Assembly (NCBI RefSeq): GCF_014654725.1
Contig: NZ_JACVZV010000017.1
Location: forward strand, 1-54,430
Source: Vulcanococcus sp. Clear-D1
GTDB lineage: Bacteria; Cyanobacteriota; Cyanobacteriia; PCC-6307; Cyanobiaceae
Direction: 5' to 3'
Length of the DNA: 54,430 nt
In this document: one piece after another, positions 33,614-44,845 of the stretch
Layout: each line of letters opens with the position of its first letter
Position numbering within the stretch: position 1 is the stretch's first letter
Notes under the pieces: generated by a model
The model's input: the letters and a program-made list of their open reading frames with translations, nothing else
Told to the model about the DNA's origin: nothing
The model's database searches: none
Program-made: the position numbers and the translations under genes

Positions 33614-34432
33614 TTACATCATGAACGGCTTCGTAGATGGGGAAATCCAGATCCACACCATGGAGGCAAGCTCCAAAAGCAAAGCAAGAATCAACAAGCG
33701 ATAAATCCATTGCCGAGCCGAAGGCCCAAGCGCGACCGCAGCGCCAAATCGACCACCAACAGCGCTCCCAAGCATCAAGGGAAAGGCCGAAGGCCAGTCA
33801 ATCTCGCCACCCACAATAAAAACAGCAAGGGAAATCAGCGTGGCTCCACCAACGAGAACCACCTTGACCGCATTCGCCTGCTTGAGTGAAAGCCCGCCAA
33901 TCAGAACGAGGCTGATCAGCAAATAAGTGCCGGCATCCAAGACAATTAGCCCGGTCCAGAGGCCAACTCCCGCCATAGCAACCTGCAACCGTGCGGAAGG
34001 GAAGATTAGATCCGTAAGATCGGCACCATCGTGCAACCAACGCTGAGGCTTGAACAACAGCAGCAACAAAGCAAGCGCGACGGCAACGTGAACAAGAAGC
34101 CGGATCTGGCCCATCGGCAATGCCGACGCGAGCCCAGCACCTAACAAGGCAGACAGCAAAAAGGCCGGCAATAAGCGCAGGACAAATGACCAGGGAATGG
34201 CGCGACGACGCTGAAAACTCCAAAAAGCCGTTGCCATACCCACCAAGACAGGAAGGCGATTAGTGCCGTTCGCAAGAGCTGGAGGCAAACCCAAAGCCAA
34301 CAAAACCGGCAGCGTGATGGCTGAACCGCTGGAAGCAGCTGCATTGAGAAATCCACAACAAACACCAGCAATCAGCAGATACATCCAGTGGTACATAACG
34401 CTGGCCAAGAGCACACAGCTTGCCATGAACAC
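33614..34432 (-). CDS. TauE/SafE family (TSUP) permease
   Basis: A 272-residue membrane protein with about eight helices of the TSUP family, whose members export sulfite, sulfoacetate or other organic anions. The family repeats are visible as ALGLPPALANGTNRLPVL near residue 55 and a second one around GGLSLKQANAVKVVLVGG near residue 185. It starts the less G+C-rich part of the window and is divergent from the deformylase gene. The nearby sulfite-oxidase-fold molybdoprotein makes sulfur-oxoanion transport an attractive but unproven guess. Confidence 0.88.
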   Translation of the reverse strand: MFMASCVLLASVMYHWMYLLIAGVCCGFLNAAASSGSAITLPVLLALGLPPALANGTNRLPVLVGMATAFWSFQRRRAIPWSFVLRLLPAFLLSALLGAGLASALPMGQIRLLVHVAVALALLLLLFKPQRWLHDGADLTDLIFPSARLQVAMAGVGLWTGLIVLDAGTYLLISLVLIGGLSLKQANAVKVVLVGGATLISLAVFIVGGEIDWPSAFPLMLGSAVGGRFGAAVALGPSARQWIYRLLILALLLELASMVWIWISPSTKPFMM

Positions 34433-34501
34433 CGATCAACCGCAATCTCAGCTAAGTTGGCAAATACCAAAGCACATCAGACCTGAAGCACAAGCGAAAA
34501 C

Positions 34502-35044
34502 ATGAGCATTCAAAATGTCTTGCGTATGGGGCATCCCATCCTTCAACAGCTCGCTCGCCCCGTCAGAGACGCCAGCGCACCCGAGATCCAGCAACTGATC
34601 CACGATCTCCGCGACACCATGCGCGCGCACCATGGCGCAGGACTAGCAGCACCACAGATTGGGCAGTCCGTGCAGGTGGTGATCTACGGAACAGGTGCTC
34701 CCAACCCTCGCTATCCCGAGGCGCCGACTATCGCCGAAACGATCCTGATGAATCCAAGTCTTGAACCCATCGGAACGGAGACAGAAAGCGGCTGGGAAGG
34801 ATGCCTCAGCGTTCCAGGATTGAGGGGCGAAGTGAGGCGCTGGAAGCGGCTACGCATTCAGGCACTGGATAGCAGGGGCCAAGAGCTTGAGCGGGTTCTG
34901 GAGGGATTTGAAGCTCGAGTGGTTCAACATGAATGCGATCACCTCAACGGGATTCTCTTTCCCCAGAAACTGACGTCTAACCAACGCTTTGGCTACATTG
35001 AAGAACTGATCACATCAGGCCAGATCCCAGCGGTACCCGGGTGA
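34502..35044 (+). CDS. def: Peptide deformylase
   Basis: Peptide deformylase removes the N-formyl group from new proteins with an active-site metal. The 180-residue protein has all three motifs: GAGLAAPQ near residue 46, EGCLSVP near residue 100 and HECDH near residue 142, so it should be active. Its ATG follows a 69-bp divergent region shared with the TSUP gene. The stop codon overlaps the GTG start of the KirBac gene (GTGA). Because cyanobacteria often have two deformylases, this may be a second, accessory copy. Confidence 0.95.
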   Translation: MSIQNVLRMGHPILQQLARPVRDASAPEIQQLIHDLRDTMRAHHGAGLAAPQIGQSVQVVIYGTGAPNPRYPEAPTIAETILMNPSLEPIGTETESGWEGCLSVPGLRGEVRRWKRLRIQALDSRGQELERVLEGFEARVVQHECDHLNGILFPQKLTSNQRFGYIEELITSGQIPAVPG

Positions 35045-35904
35045 GAATGTTCGACTTCAGCAAACGCCGCATCCACACCGATCACCAGCACACACCGTGG
35101 TACGAGCTGTGGCGACAACCCTTGGCCGCGATGATCCGCATGCCGTGGTGGCTGTTCTTCGCCACGATGGTGGGAATCTACTTAAGCGAAATCGCAATTT
35201 TCGGACTGATTTTGGGACTCGATTCCAAACACATCATCGGCGATCCACCAATGGGAATCCCAAAACCATTCGCGTTTGCCGTCGAAGCCTTCTTAGCCAA
35301 TGGGTTTAACGGACTCGCACCAGACTCACAATTCACCTATGTGGTTGCCGTGCTTGACCTCATCAGTGGGCTCATCACACTATCAACCCTAACGGCCGTC
35401 GTTTTCTCAAGACTGAGCAGCAACGAAACGCCGCTCATCTTCAGCCGACATATTTGCATCAGCAGCCTTGACAGCGGTCATTTATTCTGCCGATTTGCCA
35501 CAACAGACAGAAGTCAGTGGCTGAACGTGACCTATACACTATCGCTGATTTTTGACGATGAGCCAGAGCCAGGCCTGTGGCAACGACGCATTGTTCCACT
35601 GACAACTCTCAACACCGGCACACCTCAACTGAGCCAAACAGCCACACTCACCCACAACCTGGACGAGAGCAGCCCAATTAAGCGAATGGGGATCGACGGA
35701 CTCTTGCAACGCAACGCCGTCATCATGCCACTCGTGGAAGGCGTTGATGAGACGACAGGCTCGGGACTAGTGCAGACACATCTTTATTCAGCGAAGGACA
35801 TCATGCTCGGCTACCGCTATGGCGACCTAGTGAGCACCGACAAAAAGGGACAGCGGCGGGTCAACATACAGAAGCTCAATAATATCGTTCCCTACGCTAC
35901 ATAA
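35041..35904 (+). CDS. KirBac-type inward-rectifier channel with atypical filter
   Basis: A 287-residue channel protein of the bacterial inward-rectifier K+ family. It has an N-terminal slide helix (WYELWRQPLAAMIRMPWW), two membrane helices around a pore loop, then the cytoplasmic immunoglobulin-like gating domain. The domain is recognised by VVFSRLSSNETPLIFSRHICIS and the C-terminal pattern YSAKDIMLGYRYGDLV. The usual filter T-x-G-Y/F-G is replaced by A86-N-G-F-N-G91, which should change or abolish K+ selectivity. It starts with GTG overlapping the deformylase stop; ATG at 35047 is the alternative. Confidence 0.85.
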   Translation: MRMFDFSKRRIHTDHQHTPWYELWRQPLAAMIRMPWWLFFATMVGIYLSEIAIFGLILGLDSKHIIGDPPMGIPKPFAFAVEAFLANGFNGLAPDSQFTYVVAVLDLISGLITLSTLTAVVFSRLSSNETPLIFSRHICISSLDSGHLFCRFATTDRSQWLNVTYTLSLIFDDEPEPGLWQRRIVPLTTLNTGTPQLSQTATLTHNLDESSPIKRMGIDGLLQRNAVIMPLVEGVDETTGSGLVQTHLYSAKDIMLGYRYGDLVSTDKKGQRRVNIQKLNNIVPYAT

Positions 35905-36081
35905 TCACGATAGCCGTCACGCGGCCCTCAAGAACGAGAAGCGCACAAAGGAACAACTAACCCGCCTTGAAGAGCGATGGCCTGATCCTCGTCCATCCAA
36001 ATGGAGGTCGTGAACCAAGTCCGCATCTCGGGCACTCATAGGCCGTGACAACGGCTAGTGTGAAACCAAAGACTGCAGGCG
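35905..36081. other. 177-bp intergenic region
   Basis: The gap between the KirBac gene and the cytochrome b gene has no credible ORF, tRNA or strong hairpin with a T-run by eye. It probably contains the promoter of the redox gene run that starts at 36082, but I cannot place -35 and -10 boxes with confidence. Confidence 0.5.
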
Positions 36082-36651
36082 ATGGAATCCCAACATCACC
36101 ATCCGCTTTGGACGCGGACACTCCATGCCTGCAATGGAGCCCTGCTGATTGGCATGGCGAGCAGTGGTTTGCAGATCTACAACGCCAATCCCGTTTTCGG
36201 CGGTCGCGCAGGAGAACCCATACCCAGTCTGTTCACCCTCGGGGGATGGCTGGCGGGCGGTCGTTGGTGGCACTTCGGGTTAATGGGCGTGTTTGCGTTC
36301 GTTCTGGGCAGCTGGCTGCTGCTGCTCATGCAGTGGCGCAGACAGAGACTGGGTCGTGGTGGAGATCTAGAAACACTCAGCGCTAGCGCCAATGCCAAAA
36401 AGCGAAACTATGCGATTCACAAGATCCTCTACACGTTGATGTTGGTGGTCCTGTCGTTGGCACTGCTCACCGGGCTGGCGATGTATAAACCCGCCACGCT
36501 GTGGTGGCTGTCGGGTTGGTTTGGGAGCTGGCAGCAGCTACGCGTTCTGCACTTTGCGACCGTTCCGGTTATGGGAGTGCTCGTGTTGGGTCACGTGCTG
36601 CTGTCGTTGAAACTCGGCGGCCTGCGCCTGTTGAGAACAATCAGCTGGTAA
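36082..36651 (+). CDS. Cytochrome b561-type membrane protein
   Basis: A 189-residue protein with four membrane helices of the cytochrome b/b6 (Ni,Fe-hydrogenase-type) group. Candidate heme ligands are His15 in RTLHACNGALLIG, the histidine of RWWHFGLM, that of YAIHKILYT, and two in VLHFATVPVMGVLVLGH. It is six bases upstream of a sulfite-oxidase-fold molybdoprotein, so it probably passes electrons between that enzyme and the quinone pool, as in other cytochrome b/YedY-like pairs. The direction of electron flow cannot be told from sequence. Confidence 0.85.
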   Translation: MESQHHHPLWTRTLHACNGALLIGMASSGLQIYNANPVFGGRAGEPIPSLFTLGGWLAGGRWWHFGLMGVFAFVLGSWLLLLMQWRRQRLGRGGDLETLSASANAKKRNYAIHKILYTLMLVVLSLALLTGLAMYKPATLWWLSGWFGSWQQLRVLHFATVPVMGVLVLGHVLLSLKLGGLRLLRTISW

Positions 36652-36657
36652 ACACTG

Positions 36658-37350
36658 ATGAAACGGCGAAGCTTGCTGCAATCAGCCCTTGGGACGGGTG
36701 GGCTTTTAAGCCTCGGCGGTTGTGCCCTCAATCCGCTGGGCCAAGAGGTGGCTCAACTCACCCGGCCCCTGAACGAGCGCATCGAAGCGTGGATGCAGGC
36801 AACGACTCCTGTTCCTGAATTCAAACGGAACCAGGTGGAGCCTGCGGCCCTGCTGGTGAATAGCTTCAACGGTATCCCAGAGATCAATCTAGACAACTTT
36901 TCACTCACCGTGGATGGATTGGTGCAACAACCGCAGCAATTGGGTCTGAGCACACTCGGCCAGCTCCCCCAGCAGGAGATCGTGATCCGGCACGTGTGCG
37001 TGGAAGGCTGGGCAGCCATCGTGGCCTGGGGAGGTGTGCGACTAGCGGATGTACTCAGGCTGGCAGAAGTCTCACCGCTGGCGGGATATGTGGCCTTCGA
37101 ATCAGCCGATGGATACTTCGAAACATGGGATCTGCGTACGGCGCTCCACCCCCAGACGTTGCTAGCGACTCAGATGAATGGTGCACCCTTACCTGTGGCC
37201 AATGGTGCACCACTACGGCTGACCTCCCCGCTGAAACTCGGCTACAAACTGAGCAAGTGGATCACCGCCATCCACGTGCTTGACACCCTGAATCCTCACC
37301 GGCTCGGCACATGGGAAGATCAAGGGTATGAGTGGTATGCAGGATTATGA
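36658..37350 (+). CDS. Molybdopterin-dependent oxidoreductase (sulfite oxidase fold)
   Basis: A 230-residue exported enzyme of the sulfite oxidase/YedY-MsrP superfamily. The N-terminus has a twin-arginine signal (MKRRSLLQS) and a lipobox-like LGGC22, so it may be a folded Tat-exported lipoprotein. Cys114 in IRHVCVEGW is the molybdenum ligand. The substrate-side residues around GYKLSKWITAI are kept. It is shorter than E. coli MsrP and lacks the dimerisation domain of eukaryotic sulfite oxidase. Family members reduce methionine sulfoxide or oxidise sulfite; the partner cytochrome b lies just upstream. Confidence 0.9.
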   Translation: MKRRSLLQSALGTGGLLSLGGCALNPLGQEVAQLTRPLNERIEAWMQATTPVPEFKRNQVEPAALLVNSFNGIPEINLDNFSLTVDGLVQQPQQLGLSTLGQLPQQEIVIRHVCVEGWAAIVAWGGVRLADVLRLAEVSPLAGYVAFESADGYFETWDLRTALHPQTLLATQMNGAPLPVANGAPLRLTSPLKLGYKLSKWITAIHVLDTLNPHRLGTWEDQGYEWYAGL

Positions 37351-37394: not shown

Positions 37395-38441
37395 GTGAAC
37401 TACAACCAGGCTCGAGCCAAAATAAGCCAAGCCCCCGGCAGCACTGGGATCGCACTCGCTTTAGCCACGACCGGTCTCGAGGCTCTCCAGCCCCTAGCCC
37501 TGGTGCTCGCCTATCAACTGGGCTCCACGCGATTAGTGAATGGGCACAACCCAATTAACTTCTGCAATGGCCTACTGTTCGGCAACGCTTTCAGCTTGGC
37601 AGCACTATTGCTGGCAAGGCGCTGCCAGAGGCAGCAAAACAAACCACACAGAGAGCAGAATACTGCGTGGAACTGGACACTGGCAGCCAGATCCCTGCTC
37701 CCAATTGGATTTAACGCGCTGCTAGAAGTAGCGCTAGTGATCGCCTTTTCTCGGATTAATGCCATCCAGGTGACCCTCACCGTGGCCTGCACGGCTATCG
37801 CATTAATGGCCTGGGACTGCCTTGATCAACGCAAAGCACCGAAGATTGTCCCAACGATAGGAGCAGTTCTTGTAGCACTGTCCGCATGGATTGCGCTGGG
37901 GCCAGAAAAAGACACCTCCGCAGGCATAGGACTCAGCTCGATGGGAGCCAATCTGATACCCAATACAACAGTTGGCAATGGCTTACTCCTGGCCCTCATC
38001 CTTGGCCTGAGCGTGCTCTATTTCAAATGTTCAGAGCCCGTGACACGGGAAGCCGACATTTTTTCCTACGCCATCTGGCAGACCGGCGTACAAACAGTTG
38101 TTTTCTTGATTTGGGCGACGACGACGTTTGGCTTTGCCCATCTCTATGATCTACGATCTTCTCTCCTGTGGCAAGCAATGCTGGTCTACGGAGGCGTGAT
38201 CTCCACAGCGTACACATTAGTGGAGGCGGCTGCACTAGCCAAAGCAGGCGGAACACTCGTGGCCCTCTGCGAGGGCTTTCTACCCTTTGCGAGCGGATTG
38301 CTCGCGTGGCTTTTGTTAAGAGAGCAACTAACCCTGAATCTTGTCGTCAGCTGCCTGATTGCGGCGGCCGGCATTGGCCTGATTGAGGCCCAAAAGCTAA
38401 GTAGCCGAGATCAGGCCGTAATCAGCACTCCACCAAACTAA
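37395..38441 (+). CDS. DMT/EamA-type permease (copy 1)
   Basis: A 348-residue protein with about ten membrane helices in two halves, as in the drug/metabolite transporter superfamily. The first half has NPINFCNGLLFGNAFSLA, the second TAYTLVEAAALAKAGG and LLLREQLTLNLVVSC, which are typical EamA spacing and turn motifs. It is a distant relative of the permease at 40594, with a shared F-C-N motif early in each. The start is GTG at 37395, 44 bp after the molybdoenzyme. Substrate unknown. Confidence 0.82.
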   Translation: MNYNQARAKISQAPGSTGIALALATTGLEALQPLALVLAYQLGSTRLVNGHNPINFCNGLLFGNAFSLAALLLARRCQRQQNKPHREQNTAWNWTLAARSLLPIGFNALLEVALVIAFSRINAIQVTLTVACTAIALMAWDCLDQRKAPKIVPTIGAVLVALSAWIALGPEKDTSAGIGLSSMGANLIPNTTVGNGLLLALILGLSVLYFKCSEPVTREADIFSYAIWQTGVQTVVFLIWATTTFGFAHLYDLRSSLLWQAMLVYGGVISTAYTLVEAAALAKAGGTLVALCEGFLPFASGLLAWLLLREQLTLNLVVSCLIAAAGIGLIEAQKLSSRDQAVISTPPN

Positions 38442-38563
38442 CCATTTTTCTGAATGAACCAGGTCAGTTGCCACGCCGAAATACGTTCCCACTGATCAAC
38501 CAACACAACCGAAGACAACCAGCGGAAACAGCTGTAGCTTCCAGGACATCTAGAGACCGATCC

Positions 38564-39844
38564 ATGGGCCTGCTGCTGTTGAAAGGGCTGGTGGCCGGGC
38601 TCGCCGCTGGCACCGTTGCCACCTTTGGGATCCTCACCCTCCTACCTGCCTCACCCCAAGCGAATGCCTTGGAGCGCGCACAAGCCGGCCTGCGCCAGAC
38701 CACATCCGGAGCAGGCCTTGGAGGGCTGGCAGGCCTGCTGTGGGGCGCAGCCGAACAGCGCCGTCGCCGCCGCAACCCCTGGCAGGGATGGCGACGCTTT
38801 GTAGTGCAGCGCAAGCACCGAGAGAGCGCCGAGATCACATCGTTTGAGCTGCGCCCCGTGGACGGGGGGCCTTTACCTCGCTTTCTGGCAGGCCAATTTC
38901 TCACGCTTGAACTGCAGATCCCCGGACAGGCCAAGCCAGTACTCCGCACCTACTCGCTGTCCGACTATCCCGGTAGCGATGCCCCCCCCGATCACTACCG
39001 CATCTCAGTGAAGCGCGAACCGGCTCCAAAGGGGCTCGACGTACCTCCCGGCCTTGCCTCCACATACCTGCATGATCAGGTGGAGGAAGGCACAAACCTC
39101 AACATTCGCCCGCCGGCGGGCAACTTCGTGCTCGACAGCGACAGCACCGAGGCCATCGTGCTGGTGAGCAATGGCGTGGGGATTACCCCGATGCTCGCGA
39201 TGCTCAAAGCCGCCCTGAAGCTCTGCCCGCAACGGCCCATCTGGTTTGTGCATGGCTGCCGGAACAGTGACTATCACGCCTTTCAGAGCGATGTGGAAGC
39301 GCTGGCGGGTGCACACCCCAGCCTGCACCTACACGTGGCCTATAGCCGGCCAAGGCCAGACGATGAAGGGCATTACCAAAGCCAGGGCTATGTGGATGGC
39401 GCGCTGCTGCAACAGCTGATCCAGGGGCCAGCCGCCTACTACCTCTGCGGTTCACCTGCCTTTATGGACAGCCTGGTGATGGCGCTGCAACAAGCCGGAA
39501 TAGAGCCGGAGGCGATTCGGTTCGAACGATTCAGCCAGGCTCCCCGTGCGACGCCAACGACAACAGCTACGCCTGTGAACTCCTGTGAAGTGCAGTTCTG
39601 CCGCAGCGACCGCAGGGTCACCTGGGATGGGAGCAATCCGGAACAGAGCCTGCTGGAGCTGGCCGAGGCGAACGGTGTAAGGCCTCCATCGGCCTGCAGA
39701 GCCGGCGTGTGCGGCACCTGCACCACTCGCGTGCGAAGCGGCAAGGTCGACTACCTAGCGGATCCAACTGCGGTGGTGCCACCAGGATCAGCTTTGATCT
39801 GCATCGCCCGCCCGGCCAGCGACACGCTGGAATTAGATCAGTGA
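38564..39844 (+). CDS. Membrane-anchored FAD/NAD(P)H 2Fe-2S oxidoreductase
   Basis: A 426-residue reductase with an N-terminal hydrophobic anchor (MGLLLLKGLVAGLAAG), an FNR-type FAD domain (RTYSLSDYP), a NAD(P)H-binding domain (LVSNGVGITPML) and a C-terminal plant-type ferredoxin domain with Cys ligands in CRAGVCGTC plus a later ALICIA cysteine. The order matches flavohemoglobin-like or HCP-type NADH oxidoreductases that feed electrons from NAD(P)H to an acceptor. The DUF4079 membrane protein right after it is a candidate acceptor. TTG at 38468 would add a polar 32-residue leader and is less likely than the ATG used. Confidence 0.88.
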   Translation: MGLLLLKGLVAGLAAGTVATFGILTLLPASPQANALERAQAGLRQTTSGAGLGGLAGLLWGAAEQRRRRRNPWQGWRRFVVQRKHRESAEITSFELRPVDGGPLPRFLAGQFLTLELQIPGQAKPVLRTYSLSDYPGSDAPPDHYRISVKREPAPKGLDVPPGLASTYLHDQVEEGTNLNIRPPAGNFVLDSDSTEAIVLVSNGVGITPMLAMLKAALKLCPQRPIWFVHGCRNSDYHAFQSDVEALAGAHPSLHLHVAYSRPRPDDEGHYQSQGYVDGALLQQLIQGPAAYYLCGSPAFMDSLVMALQQAGIEPEAIRFERFSQAPRATPTTTATPVNSCEVQFCRSDRRVTWDGSNPEQSLLELAEANGVRPPSACRAGVCGTCTTRVRSGKVDYLADPTAVVPPGSALICIARPASDTLELDQ

Positions 39845-39916
39845 CGAATGGAGCAGAACACGTTGACCCCGTGTTCTGCATCGCCAATCCTGGGTGCATG
39901 CCTCCCGACGGTCGCA

Positions 39917-40627
39917 ATGCAAGGCGTTGATTGGTTAACAATCGTGCATCCCGCGTTAGCGGTGGTGTTGATCTATCCATTAATTGGCATGGTGGTGCGG
40001 CTGGGTGTCCTGGCACGCCAACGACGTCTCGGCGATCACAAAATCGCTGTCACCAGCGGGAGTGAACACACCGATCTGGGCCGTTGGCTCTCTGCGGGTG
40101 TGGTGATCATCGTGCTGATCGCACTGGTGGCGGCAATCGTGACCCATCAACCGCTGAGTGCCTTCACTGGTGGTGTGCCCAGAGGTCTGCTTTTGCTGTT
40201 GGTGCTGCTGGGCACCATCGTTTCCCTGGCAGCTCTGTGGCACGCCACCAGCAAAGCCATGCGTTTGCTATTTGCTTTGCTGACATGGGTAGGTGTGATC
40301 AGCCTGGGAGCTCAGCCGGAGGTATGGAGGCTGAGTGACAACCCCCTCGATCCACAGTTCTGGCAGTCGCACTACTGGGCAGGAGTAGCGGTCACTGGCC
40401 TAATGCTGTTTTCACTGGGGGCACGGCCAGAGATTCTGCGGCAGTTGCGCTGGCGCCGAGTCCATGTGGCCGCAAATCTGCTCGCTGCAGTGTTATTCAC
40501 CATTCAAGGCATCACCGGCACCCGTGATCTGCTGGAGATCCCGCTTGGCTGGCAGAAACCCACGCTCTATCAATGTGATTGGTCAGCCATGACATGCCCG
40601 CCGCTAGCCACAAAGGCGGCGCCTTGA
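39917..40627 (+). CDS. DUF4079 membrane protein, possible b-type cytochrome
   Basis: A 236-residue membrane protein of DUF4079, found in cyanobacteria and plants. About six helices are seen. Histidines sit within or near helices at IVHPALAVV, ALWHATSKAMR, WQSHYWAGVAV and RRVHVAANL, the paired arrangement used by b561-like cytochromes to hold two hemes; this is my inference, not a known property. The ending IQGITGTRDLLEIP is a family signature. ATG at 39917 was preferred; ATG at 39848 would add 23 residues without helix. It sits just after the 2Fe-2S reductase. Confidence 0.78.
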   Translation: MQGVDWLTIVHPALAVVLIYPLIGMVVRLGVLARQRRLGDHKIAVTSGSEHTDLGRWLSAGVVIIVLIALVAAIVTHQPLSAFTGGVPRGLLLLLVLLGTIVSLAALWHATSKAMRLLFALLTWVGVISLGAQPEVWRLSDNPLDPQFWQSHYWAGVAVTGLMLFSLGARPEILRQLRWRRVHVAANLLAAVLFTIQGITGTRDLLEIPLGWQKPTLYQCDWSAMTCPPLATKAAP

Positions 40628-41583
40628 GAAGCGGAGTCGGCTACCTTGCGCTGTTCATCCTGTTGCGCGGCAGTGACACCACGTTGCTCAAACTGCTACA
40701 GCGTGCCGGAGAAGCCACTCATGCGGCCGGTGGGCCTGAAGCGATCAGCTTCTGCAACGTCTTTTTCTTCTCAAGCTTGATCACAGGGCTAGCGCTTCTG
40801 CTGATTGATCGGGAGGGGGTGCAACGTCAGCTACCGTCGCTTAATCCAGAGGATCGCTGGTTACTCGCGCTGCAGAGCTTCAGCGGCTTTTTTCTGGGCC
40901 CCATGTGTTTTTATTTGGCGCTGGATCGGCTCAGCGTGGTGGAACAGACCCTGTTGTTCAGCCTCACGGTACCCACCACATCTTTATTAGCTCGTGCACT
41001 CATTAGGGAAGCATTGCCCCGCAGCTTTGCCCTGACCTGCGCCATGATCTCCTGCGGGTTGCTGCTAGCCAACCACACAAAGTTGGGAATGAAGATGGTT
41101 GTTCCTGTCGACTTTCGCGGTGTGCTGTGGGCGCTATTGGGTGTGATGGCGTTCGGTATCAGCGCCGTGATCAATCGTCTTGCAGTCAGGCGAGGGTTAG
41201 GGATTGGTTTCACGGTAGGGATCAACAGCCTGGCGGCCGCCGCCGCATTCGCTGTGATTGCACTTGTGCTGTTTGGCCCCAGCCATTTTTTATATCTCAA
41301 AAGCTGGTGGGTACTGGGAGTGATCGGCGGCTATGCGCTGATCATCACTCTGGGTAGCCAATGGAGCCTGATGAAGAGCTACGTGCAGCTACCTGTGGCC
41401 AGGGTGAGCGTTTGGGCATCGCTCACCATCGTGATCGCTCTAGTGGAAGCCCGTCTGCTGCTGGAAGAGAAGCTCAGTGGGTTATCGCTGGTGGGAGCTG
41501 CGCTGATCCTGGTCGCGGTCGGACTGAATACATTGGCGTCAACCTCAGACAACCAGGCTGACAGGCTCCAAAGGGCCATCTAG
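40594..41583 (+). CDS. DMT/EamA-type permease (copy 2)
   Basis: A 329-residue, ten-helix permease of the EamA/DMT superfamily: AISFCNVFFFSSLITGLALLL near the start, LDRLSVVEQTLLFSLTVPT in the first half, and SLTIVIALVEARLLLEEKLSG at the end, as in exporters such as RhaT and YdcZ relatives. It overlaps the 3' end of the DUF4079 gene by 34 bp, so it is in the same transcript. The ATG at 40594 lies five codons after a TTG. Paralogous to the permease at 37395. Confidence 0.82.
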   Translation: MPAASHKGGALRSGVGYLALFILLRGSDTTLLKLLQRAGEATHAAGGPEAISFCNVFFFSSLITGLALLLIDREGVQRQLPSLNPEDRWLLALQSFSGFFLGPMCFYLALDRLSVVEQTLLFSLTVPTTSLLARALIREALPRSFALTCAMISCGLLLANHTKLGMKMVVPVDFRGVLWALLGVMAFGISAVINRLAVRRGLGIGFTVGINSLAAAAAFAVIALVLFGPSHFLYLKSWWVLGVIGGYALIITLGSQWSLMKSYVQLPVARVSVWASLTIVIALVEARLLLEEKLSGLSLVGAALILVAVGLNTLASTSDNQADRLQRAI

Positions 41584-41618: not shown

Positions 41619-42074
41619 ATGTTCAAGGCAACCGCGATTCTCGCTCTGAGCCTCGGAGCTGTCGCCACTGTGCCAAGCGTCAGCGCTGTGACGCCACCGA
41701 CGCAACAACTCATCGCTGCGGCCCAGAGCAAATCCATCGCCTTTCAGAAGGCTGAAGCACCGGTTACCGGAAGCTTCACAGTGAAGCAACAGGATGGCAA
41801 AACCAATCTGGTGTTCAGCAAAGACTTCAGCACGAATCCTCAGGCACCTGCCTTGCAGGTCGTGCTGCTGAAGTCGGCTACACCGCTGAAGAGCCTGAAG
41901 GCTCCCCACTACCCTCTCGGCGCCGGCACCTACACGCAAGTTGCGCCGCTGAAGAGCGCCAAAGGCGCACAGACATACACACTCCCCGCTGGAGTTGACT
42001 TGAAAGCCTTCGGGTCGGTGCTGATCTGGTGCAAGGTGGCGAACGCCACGATGGCCTGGGCACCGTTGAAGTGA
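41619..42074 (+). CDS. Exported DM13-domain protein
   Basis: A 151-residue secreted protein: signal peptide MFKATAILALSLGAVATVPSVSA, then a DM13 domain from about residue 45 (TGSFTVKQQDGKTNLVFSKDF, LPAGVDLKAFGSVLIWCKVANATMAWA). DM13 domains are often next to DOMON or cytochrome-like domains and were proposed to take part in redox reactions through the conserved cysteine of the IWC motif. It lies among redox genes here, which fits that proposal. Confidence 0.85.
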   Translation: MFKATAILALSLGAVATVPSVSAVTPPTQQLIAAAQSKSIAFQKAEAPVTGSFTVKQQDGKTNLVFSKDFSTNPQAPALQVVLLKSATPLKSLKAPHYPLGAGTYTQVAPLKSAKGAQTYTLPAGVDLKAFGSVLIWCKVANATMAWAPLK

Positions 42075-44317: not shown

Positions 44318-44845
44318 ATGACAATTGACCATCTCAGTTTCGGAACACTCGATTTGAGTGCCACACGCCGCTTCTACGAAGACCAGCTGGGGTTCCCCGT
44401 GCTGATCCATGAGTACCTAAAAATGGAGGAAGGCGGCTGGGTTGATCACATCTTCTTTGATTGTGGCGGTGGATGCGCCTTGGCATTCATGCAGTGGCAT
44501 GATGTTCCTGGCGTTCCAGATCTATTTGATCCCAGCATTAATCGAGGACTCGGTGTGCCCAACGGCACTTATCATTTCGCCTTACGTTGCGCGAATCAGG
44601 TAGAGCTGGCAGAACGCCGTCAGGAACTGATGGAGAGAGGTGTCGTTGTAGGCCCGCTTATCAGCCTCAATCCGTATCAGTCCTTTTTCCTTGAAGATCC
44701 AGTCAATGGTCTGCGGATGGAATACACCACGCGGTTACGCGTTCCCAATGCGACAGATCGCGATCCCGGCAAGCGTCAGTTCCCAGCTAACTTGGCACTG
44801 TTCGAGCTAGCAGCTCAGCCGAACGAGGGAGAGCAAATGAAATGA
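44318..44845 (+). CDS. VOC/glyoxalase-family protein
   Basis: A 175-residue protein with the vicinal-oxygen-chelate fold: IDHLSFGTLDLSATRRFYEDQLGFPV at the start (first metal-binding histidine) and a second half with NGTYHFALRC and FLEDPVNGLRMEY (second histidine and glutamate). Such proteins are dioxygenases, glyoxalases or resistance proteins; which one is not clear. It stands alone, convergent with the Gfo/Idh/MocA gene. Confidence 0.88.
   Translation: MTIDHLSFGTLDLSATRRFYEDQLGFPVLIHEYLKMEEGGWVDHIFFDCGGGCALAFMQWHDVPGVPDLFDPSINRGLGVPNGTYHFALRCANQVELAERRQELMERGVVVGPLISLNPYQSFFLEDPVNGLRMEYTTRLRVPNATDRDPGKRQFPANLALFELAAQPNEGEQMK

Follow-up and report, generated by a model that had tools for sequence, protein, structure and literature searches.

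A branch of KirBac-architecture channels with replaced selectivity filters, usually encoded among membrane redox genes, in one cyanobacterial family

The TxGYG selectivity filter is among the most conserved motifs of channel biology, and to our knowledge few natural Kir proteins have abandoned it. One gene that departs from it lies in a 54,430-nucleotide stretch of Vulcanococcus sp. Clear-D1 DNA (contig NZ_JACVZV010000017.1; the whole stretch is hereafter the window), where a KirBac-type protein carries the filter ANGFNG. What kind of protein results from such a replacement, and what might it do for the cell? The window protein belongs to a long-kept branch of KirBac-architecture channels found in one cyanobacterial family, and the gene of this branch usually lies among membrane redox genes.

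The channel frame (35041-35904, forward strand) is open throughout, and the same stretch read as its reverse complement is filled with stops. Because relatives start at ATG, the ATG at 35047, two bases past the deformylase stop codon, is a likelier start than the GTG at 35041. Counted from this ATG the filter spans A84-G89; counted from the GTG it spans A86-G91. On the same strand 3′ of the channel come the b561, MsrP-like, EamA, reductase, DUF4079, EamA and DM13 genes, and then a cupin (Table 1). The genome holds one match each to the MsrP-like enzyme and to DM13, and two to DUF4079. A promoter and terminator scan of 34300-36300 gave no signal above shuffles.

Table 1. Features of the window at and around the channel gene
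Feature	Coordinates	Strand	Basis
Non-canonical KirBac-type channel gene	35047..35904	+	285 aa, alternative start GTG 35041; phmmer KirBac1.1, Pfam IRK_C
Selectivity-filter codons, ANGFNG (A84-G89)	35296..35313	+	Ungapped alignment to KirBac1.1 TVGYGD; clade alignment
Cys137 codon	35455..35457	+	Invariant 26/26 clade, 0/84 canonical
Cys148 codon	35488..35490	+	Invariant 26/26 clade, 0/84 canonical
Peptide deformylase, directly upstream of channel	34502..35044	+	Pfam PF01327 6.4e-48
Cytochrome b561-type membrane protein (linked module)	36082..36651	+	Pfam PF01292 4.1e-11
MsrP-like molybdopterin oxidoreductase (linked module)	36658..37350	+	Pfam PF00174 1.1e-34; NCBIfam MsrP 2.4e-27, under its cut-off
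EamA-type transporter	37395..38441	+	Pfam PF00892 2e-09
FAD/NAD(P) oxidoreductase with 2Fe-2S ferredoxin domain (linked module)	38468..39844	+	Pfam PF00175, PF00111, PF00970
DUF4079 membrane protein (linked module)	39848..40627	+	Pfam PF13301 1.6e-31
EamA-type transporter, second (linked module)	40579..41583	+	Pfam PF00892 1e-17
DM13 electron-transfer domain protein (linked module)	41619..42074	+	Pfam PF10517 1.5e-17

The window protein matches KirBac1.1 over nearly its full length (phmmer E 1.6e-23, query residues 23-284), from the slide helix through TM1, the P-loop and TM2 to the Kir cytoplasmic domain, and a profile of its relatives finds KirBac1.1 at E 5.5e-35. Pfam IRK_C is matched at 8.3e-09; at the thresholds applied it is the sole Pfam hit, and NCBIfam gives none. 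The P-loops of the window protein (VEAFLANGFNGLAPDS) and KirBac1.1 (VETLATVGYGDMHPQT) align without a gap. Compared residue by residue with KirBac1.1, the filter has Ala for Thr at position 1 and Asn at position 2, retains the first Gly, and then has Phe for Tyr and Asn for the second Gly. The initial annotation had read the filter as A86-N87-G88-F89-N90-G91 (GTG numbering), with the Thr and the second Gly lost from a protein of otherwise KirBac pattern (slide helix, pore and C-terminal domain); reading frame, alignment and IRK_C match agree with it on each of these points. Its description of the two Asn as placed in an insertion-like manner does not survive the ungapped alignment, by which an insertion within the filter is ruled out. 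The window's own genome also encodes a canonical paralog with the filter SIGYG.

Close relatives share the departure. Of the intact homologues in 99 genomes (the window's own and its relatives) and one contig, the five closest are 42-77% identical and all without TxGYG; the nearest (L003, a MAG contig bearing the same copy as genome G147) is 77% identical and reads NNGFNG. When 400 genomes of the window's family were searched with a profile, 26 of them each carried one intact member, scoring 349-540 bits; G058 had an interrupted copy at 263 bits, and the best canonical KirBac reached 136 bits. In a class-wide sample of 388 genomes (193 with matches; filters read for L136-L139 and the loci of the relatives' search), no member was found outside the window's family, the best outside match scoring at most 154 bits and reading SIGYG. 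None of the 26 has the TxGYG or TxGFG filter of KirBac K+ channels. The initial annotation had suggested a Kir-like branch with an altered filter, passing a different ion or acting as a non-conducting sensor, and proposed a search of picocyanobacterial KirBac homologues, to be counted against it if close homologues were TxGYG-type and the window's copy an error. The 26 intact members from the 400 family genomes instead form a single clade under purifying selection, none of them TxGYG-type. A sequencing error or lone oddity is thus ruled out. A further KirBac subgroup of the family (L064, L066, L067, L068 and L069; 61-71 bits against the clade profile) has the P-loop VETxATIGYG, with a canonical filter.

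Two P-loop types occur in the clade, ANxF (ANGF, n=11) and SASF (n=15). For column and tree counts a row had to align over at least 231 residues and each locus was counted once, which gave 26 clade and 84 canonical rows; shorter canonical matches served for filter reading only. ANGF members have Ala at position 1 (10/11), Asn at position 2 and Phe at position 4 (both 11/11), keep the first Gly in 8/11 and have Asn or Asp at the second Gly position in 8/11. Fourteen SASF members read Ser-Ala-Ser-Phe and one Val-Ala-Ser-Leu, with zero Gly across the six filter positions. In all 84 canonical rows positions 3 and 5 are Gly, and position 4 is Tyr in 83 and Phe in one. The pore-helix Thr, found in 83 of the 84, is gone in the clade. 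At the end of TM2, T116 (26/26), F120 (26/26) and R122 (25/26) are shared with all 84 canonical rows. Outside the filter the clade has a signature of its own: R31, T111, P129, C137, C148, D154, W158, Y163, Q179, N189, A199 and Q243 are among the residues invariant in the 26 and found in none of the 84.

With P-loop columns removed, the 26 members still form one side of a branch with SH-aLRT support of 100 (ANGF 94, SASF 91). For the trees and the identity table, canonical rows were thinned to 31 at <72% identity. KirBac1.1 is on average 42% identical to these 31 canonical cyanobacterial KirBacs and 23% identical to the window protein, so that fast divergence of the clade appears likely; the window protein itself averages 25% identity to the 31. 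The clade stem is long, at about 3 changes per column. When KirBac1.1 is added, the clade joins the canonical KirBacs of its own family with a support of 73, which is not significant, and an alternative tree that keeps the 31 canonical cyanobacterial rows together is not rejected (p-AU 0.48).

In seven independent close pairs (six of them SASF), dN/dS is 0.17 for the whole gene; it falls to 0.057 over the 17 P-loop codons (21 synonymous against 5 nonsynonymous differences) and to 0.028 over the six codons of the filter (7 against 1). Mean pairwise identity of the P-loop against that of the C-terminal domain is 0.58 versus 0.68 in ANGF, about equal in SASF (0.77 versus 0.74) and 0.78 versus 0.46 in the canonical set, where thinning lowers identity outside the filter. 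The ANGF P-loop is thus less conserved over long times than the rest of the protein, a pattern that relaxed constraint would give. Together, the low dN/dS of close pairs and the modest long-term identity suggest that the new P-loop is under selection without the exceptional constraint of a K+ filter. That the lineage is real and functional we regard as virtually certain.

The channel gene has also been lost. Broken copies occur in G058 (L059/L165, with a deletion and a frame break), G377 (L074/L166), G327 (L080/L167) and G251 (L081/L168), with a weak fragment in G322 (L077) and a short trace in G225 (L193 3287-3349). The decayed copies in G058, G327, G251 and G225 still adjoin genes of the redox module described below; there the channel was lost repeatedly and the module stays.

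Neighbouring genes offer a lead to the role of the channel. Contexts spanned 6.5-14 kb, some of them truncated where a contig ended, and were compared with 20 canonical contexts hand-picked from the match list before any canonical context had been looked at. At least one family of a recurrent module lies within about 5 kb in 21/26 clade contexts versus 0/20 canonical ones, and in 19/26 when EamA, a broad transporter family, is left out of the count. By family, the 26 contexts include EamA in 19, DM13 in 17, RskA and DUF4079 in 14 each, ECF sigma and MsrP-like in 13 each, cytochrome b561 in 12, CcdA-redoxin in 11 and the reductase in 4. In most SASF loci a divergent RskA-ECF sigma-EamA block stands on one side, and the channel with DM13, often also with DUF4079 and CcdA-redoxin, on the other; ECF sigma is near 13/15 and RskA near 14/15 of these loci. 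The gene order of ANGF loci differs. In the contexts scanned with the module models, sigma/anti-sigma genes are near 0/11 ANGF loci, and the ECF sigma model (A4) has no match in the window's own genome. Five of the 11 ANGF contexts are without any module gene, and at two loci (G020, G317) EamA is the sole one. A deformylase directly upstream, which had been offered as a functional hint, recurs only in G141, which with the window makes 2/26 contexts, some of the 26 being truncated at a contig end. What does recur beside the channel is redox and ECF-sigma genes, and the deformylase link is rejected as incidental.

Since the module families were drawn from clade contexts, the comparison is circular, and the models were therefore retrained on one subclade only. 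Models trained on SASF match 6/11 ANGF contexts versus 0/20 canonical ones (Fisher p = 0.0006), with two or more families in 5/11 versus 0/20 (p = 0.003). Those trained on ANGF match 15/15 SASF contexts, one via EamA alone, and 0/20 canonical ones. DM13 lies within 7 kb of 18/26 clade genes (the DM13 neighbour of the G281 channel being a broken fragment) versus 5/77 canonical genes, the 77 being the matches listed from the family profile search; the five are not among the hand-picked 20. In raw counts that ignore kinship, DM13 is present in 21/26 clade genomes versus 58/374 others.

The five canonical KirBac genes near DM13 are L206 (G115:C1, 5035-7096), L196, L205, L207 and L208. At L206 the canonical gene comes after DM13 and DUF4079 and has sigma and anti-sigma genes nearby; its slot is the one that the odd channel occupies in L161-L163. 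This suggests that channel types were exchanged in one operon slot, and that the slot calls for a Kir-type channel.

The module also exists on its own. Eleven module loci outside the clade-channel contexts were hand-picked from the DM13 list (L204, which lies downstream in G020 and contains no module gene, was left out); nine are without a channel, one has a short trace (L193) and one a canonical KirBac (L196). The genomes of L197 and L198 encode a clade channel elsewhere. The nine loci with no adjoining channel (L194, L195 and L197-L203) carry DM13 and the ECF sigma-RskA block, often with EamA, MsrP-like and b561 genes. The sigma factor, anti-sigma factor and CcdA-redoxin of this block are reminiscent of the mycobacterial SigK-RskA-DipZ set. 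Because the module often occurs without a clade channel alongside, the channel looks like an accessory of it.

Kir channels with non-canonical filters are already known, among them the NirBac channels and TbIRK. A non-canonical P-loop in a KirBac-homologous protein is what marks a NirBac by sequence, and the clade has it. NirBac1.1, 1.2 and 2.1, from Anaeromyxobacter and Gemmatimonas, are described in PMC4607889: NirBac2.1 has the P-loop TTGTD, and those of NirBac1.1 and 1.2 are unlike any known filter and unlike each other, with >66% identity elsewhere. According to the same account, NirBac1.1 and 1.2 form tetramers and pass Na+, K+ and Rb+ in liposomes, their flux depends strongly on POPG, and the cellular role of bacterial Kir-domain channels is called unclear (PMC4607889). 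The clade shares with them, as there described, the KirBac architecture, a non-canonical P-loop, the lack of TxGYG and an intact Kir C-terminal domain. It differs in phylum and in P-loops, so that the likeness, drawn from the NirBac descriptions, is one of kind and not of sequence, and each of its two P-loop types is kept by many members (11 and 15). The portion of PMC4607889 drawn on here describes neither the clade's Cys pair nor its redox neighbourhood for NirBac.

Clade proteins can be aligned with KirBac1.1 and KirBac3.1 over most of their length and keep the IRK_C domain and the TM2 residues; the TVGYGD of KirBac1.1 is replaced, and the window protein is 23% identical to KirBac1.1. Canonical cyanobacterial KirBacs have the same phylum and fold, but all 84 rows keep both filter Gly and lack both clade Cys, and the clade differs in both respects. 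One cyanobacterial channel, KirBac6.1 of Synechocystis, is reported to complement a K+-uptake mutant (PMC13099474). For picocyanobacteria of fresh and brackish water, though not for marine ones, a putative inward rectifier (CK_00046459) is on record (PMC9361551); it is set beside the clade here by description only. The literature searched, with subscription papers and preprints outside its scope, yielded no report of the cyanobacterial clade, its P-loops, its Cys pair or its redox linkage.

By analogy with NirBac1.1 and 1.2, the reading that best explains the whole is that clade members are NirBac-like cation pores, probably not selective for K+, that are tied to a redox module of the envelope; we give it even chances. 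Its parts fare differently. The channel probably conducts ions, and if it does, its K+ selectivity has very probably been altered or lost; that it serves the redox module is an evenly balanced proposition. The pore would be built of four identical subunits and would pass cations without discriminating K+, as NirBac channels are reported to do, and the cytoplasmic domain would open and close it. A homomer is favoured since 10/26 clade genomes lack a second KirBac among the matches listed. Electron flow across a membrane leaves charge that needs balance. Flux through the channel might serve the adjoining module during transmembrane electron transfer, for instance through such charge balance or through a shift in membrane potential.

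A somewhat unlikely alternative is that the protein is a Kir relative that no longer conducts and instead acts in the membrane as a sensor or scaffold, its gating fold retained. In its favour are filter residues that differ between subgroups without the extra constraint of canonical channels, Gly-free SASF filters, a C-terminal signature specific to the clade (the invariant Cys pair with W158, Y163, Q179 and N189) and repeated decay of the gene. In close pairs, however, P-loop dN/dS is below the whole-gene value, T116, F120 and R122 of TM2 are kept, and in G115 the same slot is filled by a canonical channel. Together these three points weaken a purely non-conducting reading.

It is quite unlikely that the protein has remained a K+ channel despite its unusual filter, as the trypanosome TbIRK has. 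ANGF filters do keep the first Gly (8/11) and an aromatic residue (11/11), and their second Gly gives way in 8/11 to Asn or Asp, residues that tolerate a left-handed backbone. However, Thr/Ser at filter position 1 is Ala in 10/11 ANGF members, the SASF type reads Ser-Ala-Ser (one Val-Ala-Ser) with no Gly, and the pore-helix Thr of 83/84 canonical rows is gone. TbIRK of Trypanosoma brucei, a Kir protein of the acidocalcisome without TxGYG, is reported to be K+-selective with the filter GGYVG and a pK/pNa of about 7 (PMC5429665), an example of K+ selectivity that outlasts the signature. The clade resembles it, as so described, in being Kir proteins without the signature sequence; TbIRK differs in being eukaryotic, in its GGYVG filter and in its preference for K+ over Na+.

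That the protein is a modifier subunit, able to assemble only together with the canonical KirBac of its own cell, is very unlikely. Another KirBac match is present in the window's genome and in 15 other clade genomes, but the 10/26 clade genomes without one among the matches listed include 8 that are at least 94% complete (for some genomes the first 6 candidates were scored), so that a canonical partner looks dispensable; the window protein's average identity of 25% to the 31 canonical rows also speaks against it. A relaxed or dying gene, or a sequencing or assembly error, is barely credible despite the broken or fragmentary copies in G058, G377, G327, G251, G322 and G225, and is taken as refuted for intact copies by 26 intact frames in 26 genomes and a dN/dS of 0.17 over seven close pairs.

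Within the reading of a NirBac-like cation pore, the two clade-specific cysteines invite attention. C137 and C148 are the sole cysteines of the window protein. The alignment puts them on either side of a turn where the cytoplasmic domain begins, and this turn has one residue fewer than in the canonical rows. An AlphaFold2 model with the window protein and the L003 sequence as only input, of low confidence (pLDDT 33.4), places a strand on each side of the turn, at 135-140 and 145-151. The pair might act as a redox switch tying channel opening to the redox state, although gating through it is somewhat unlikely. In the fullest version of this reading, which as a whole we consider unlikely, a redox-gated, non-selective Kir-type channel would be the electrical partner of an envelope redox-repair system controlled by the ECF sigma/anti-sigma pair, with the Cys pair setting the gating. 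Electrons would cross via the ferredoxin-type reductase, cytochrome b561/DUF4079, the MsrP-like enzyme, DM13 and CcdA-redoxin, and the channel would return the charge.

With 26 intact members of two P-loop types, 16 clade genomes that also encode a canonical relative, and decayed copies besides, the replacement of a filter becomes traceable by evolution and by point mutation, and the redox linkage and clade-specific Cys pair provide a first lead to the cellular role of such channels.

Two further genes recur near these loci. A glyoxalase-family gene lies near the module in the window (44318-44845), and a visibly similar relative adjoins the odd channel of L003 (4150-4665), a locus where no module gene was detected. 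In three SASF contexts (L152, L154 and L156), the neighbourhood of the sigma/anti-sigma genes includes a ChrR-type double cupin (L152 1893-2486; Cupin_7 3.9e-58), which may point to a singlet-oxygen response.
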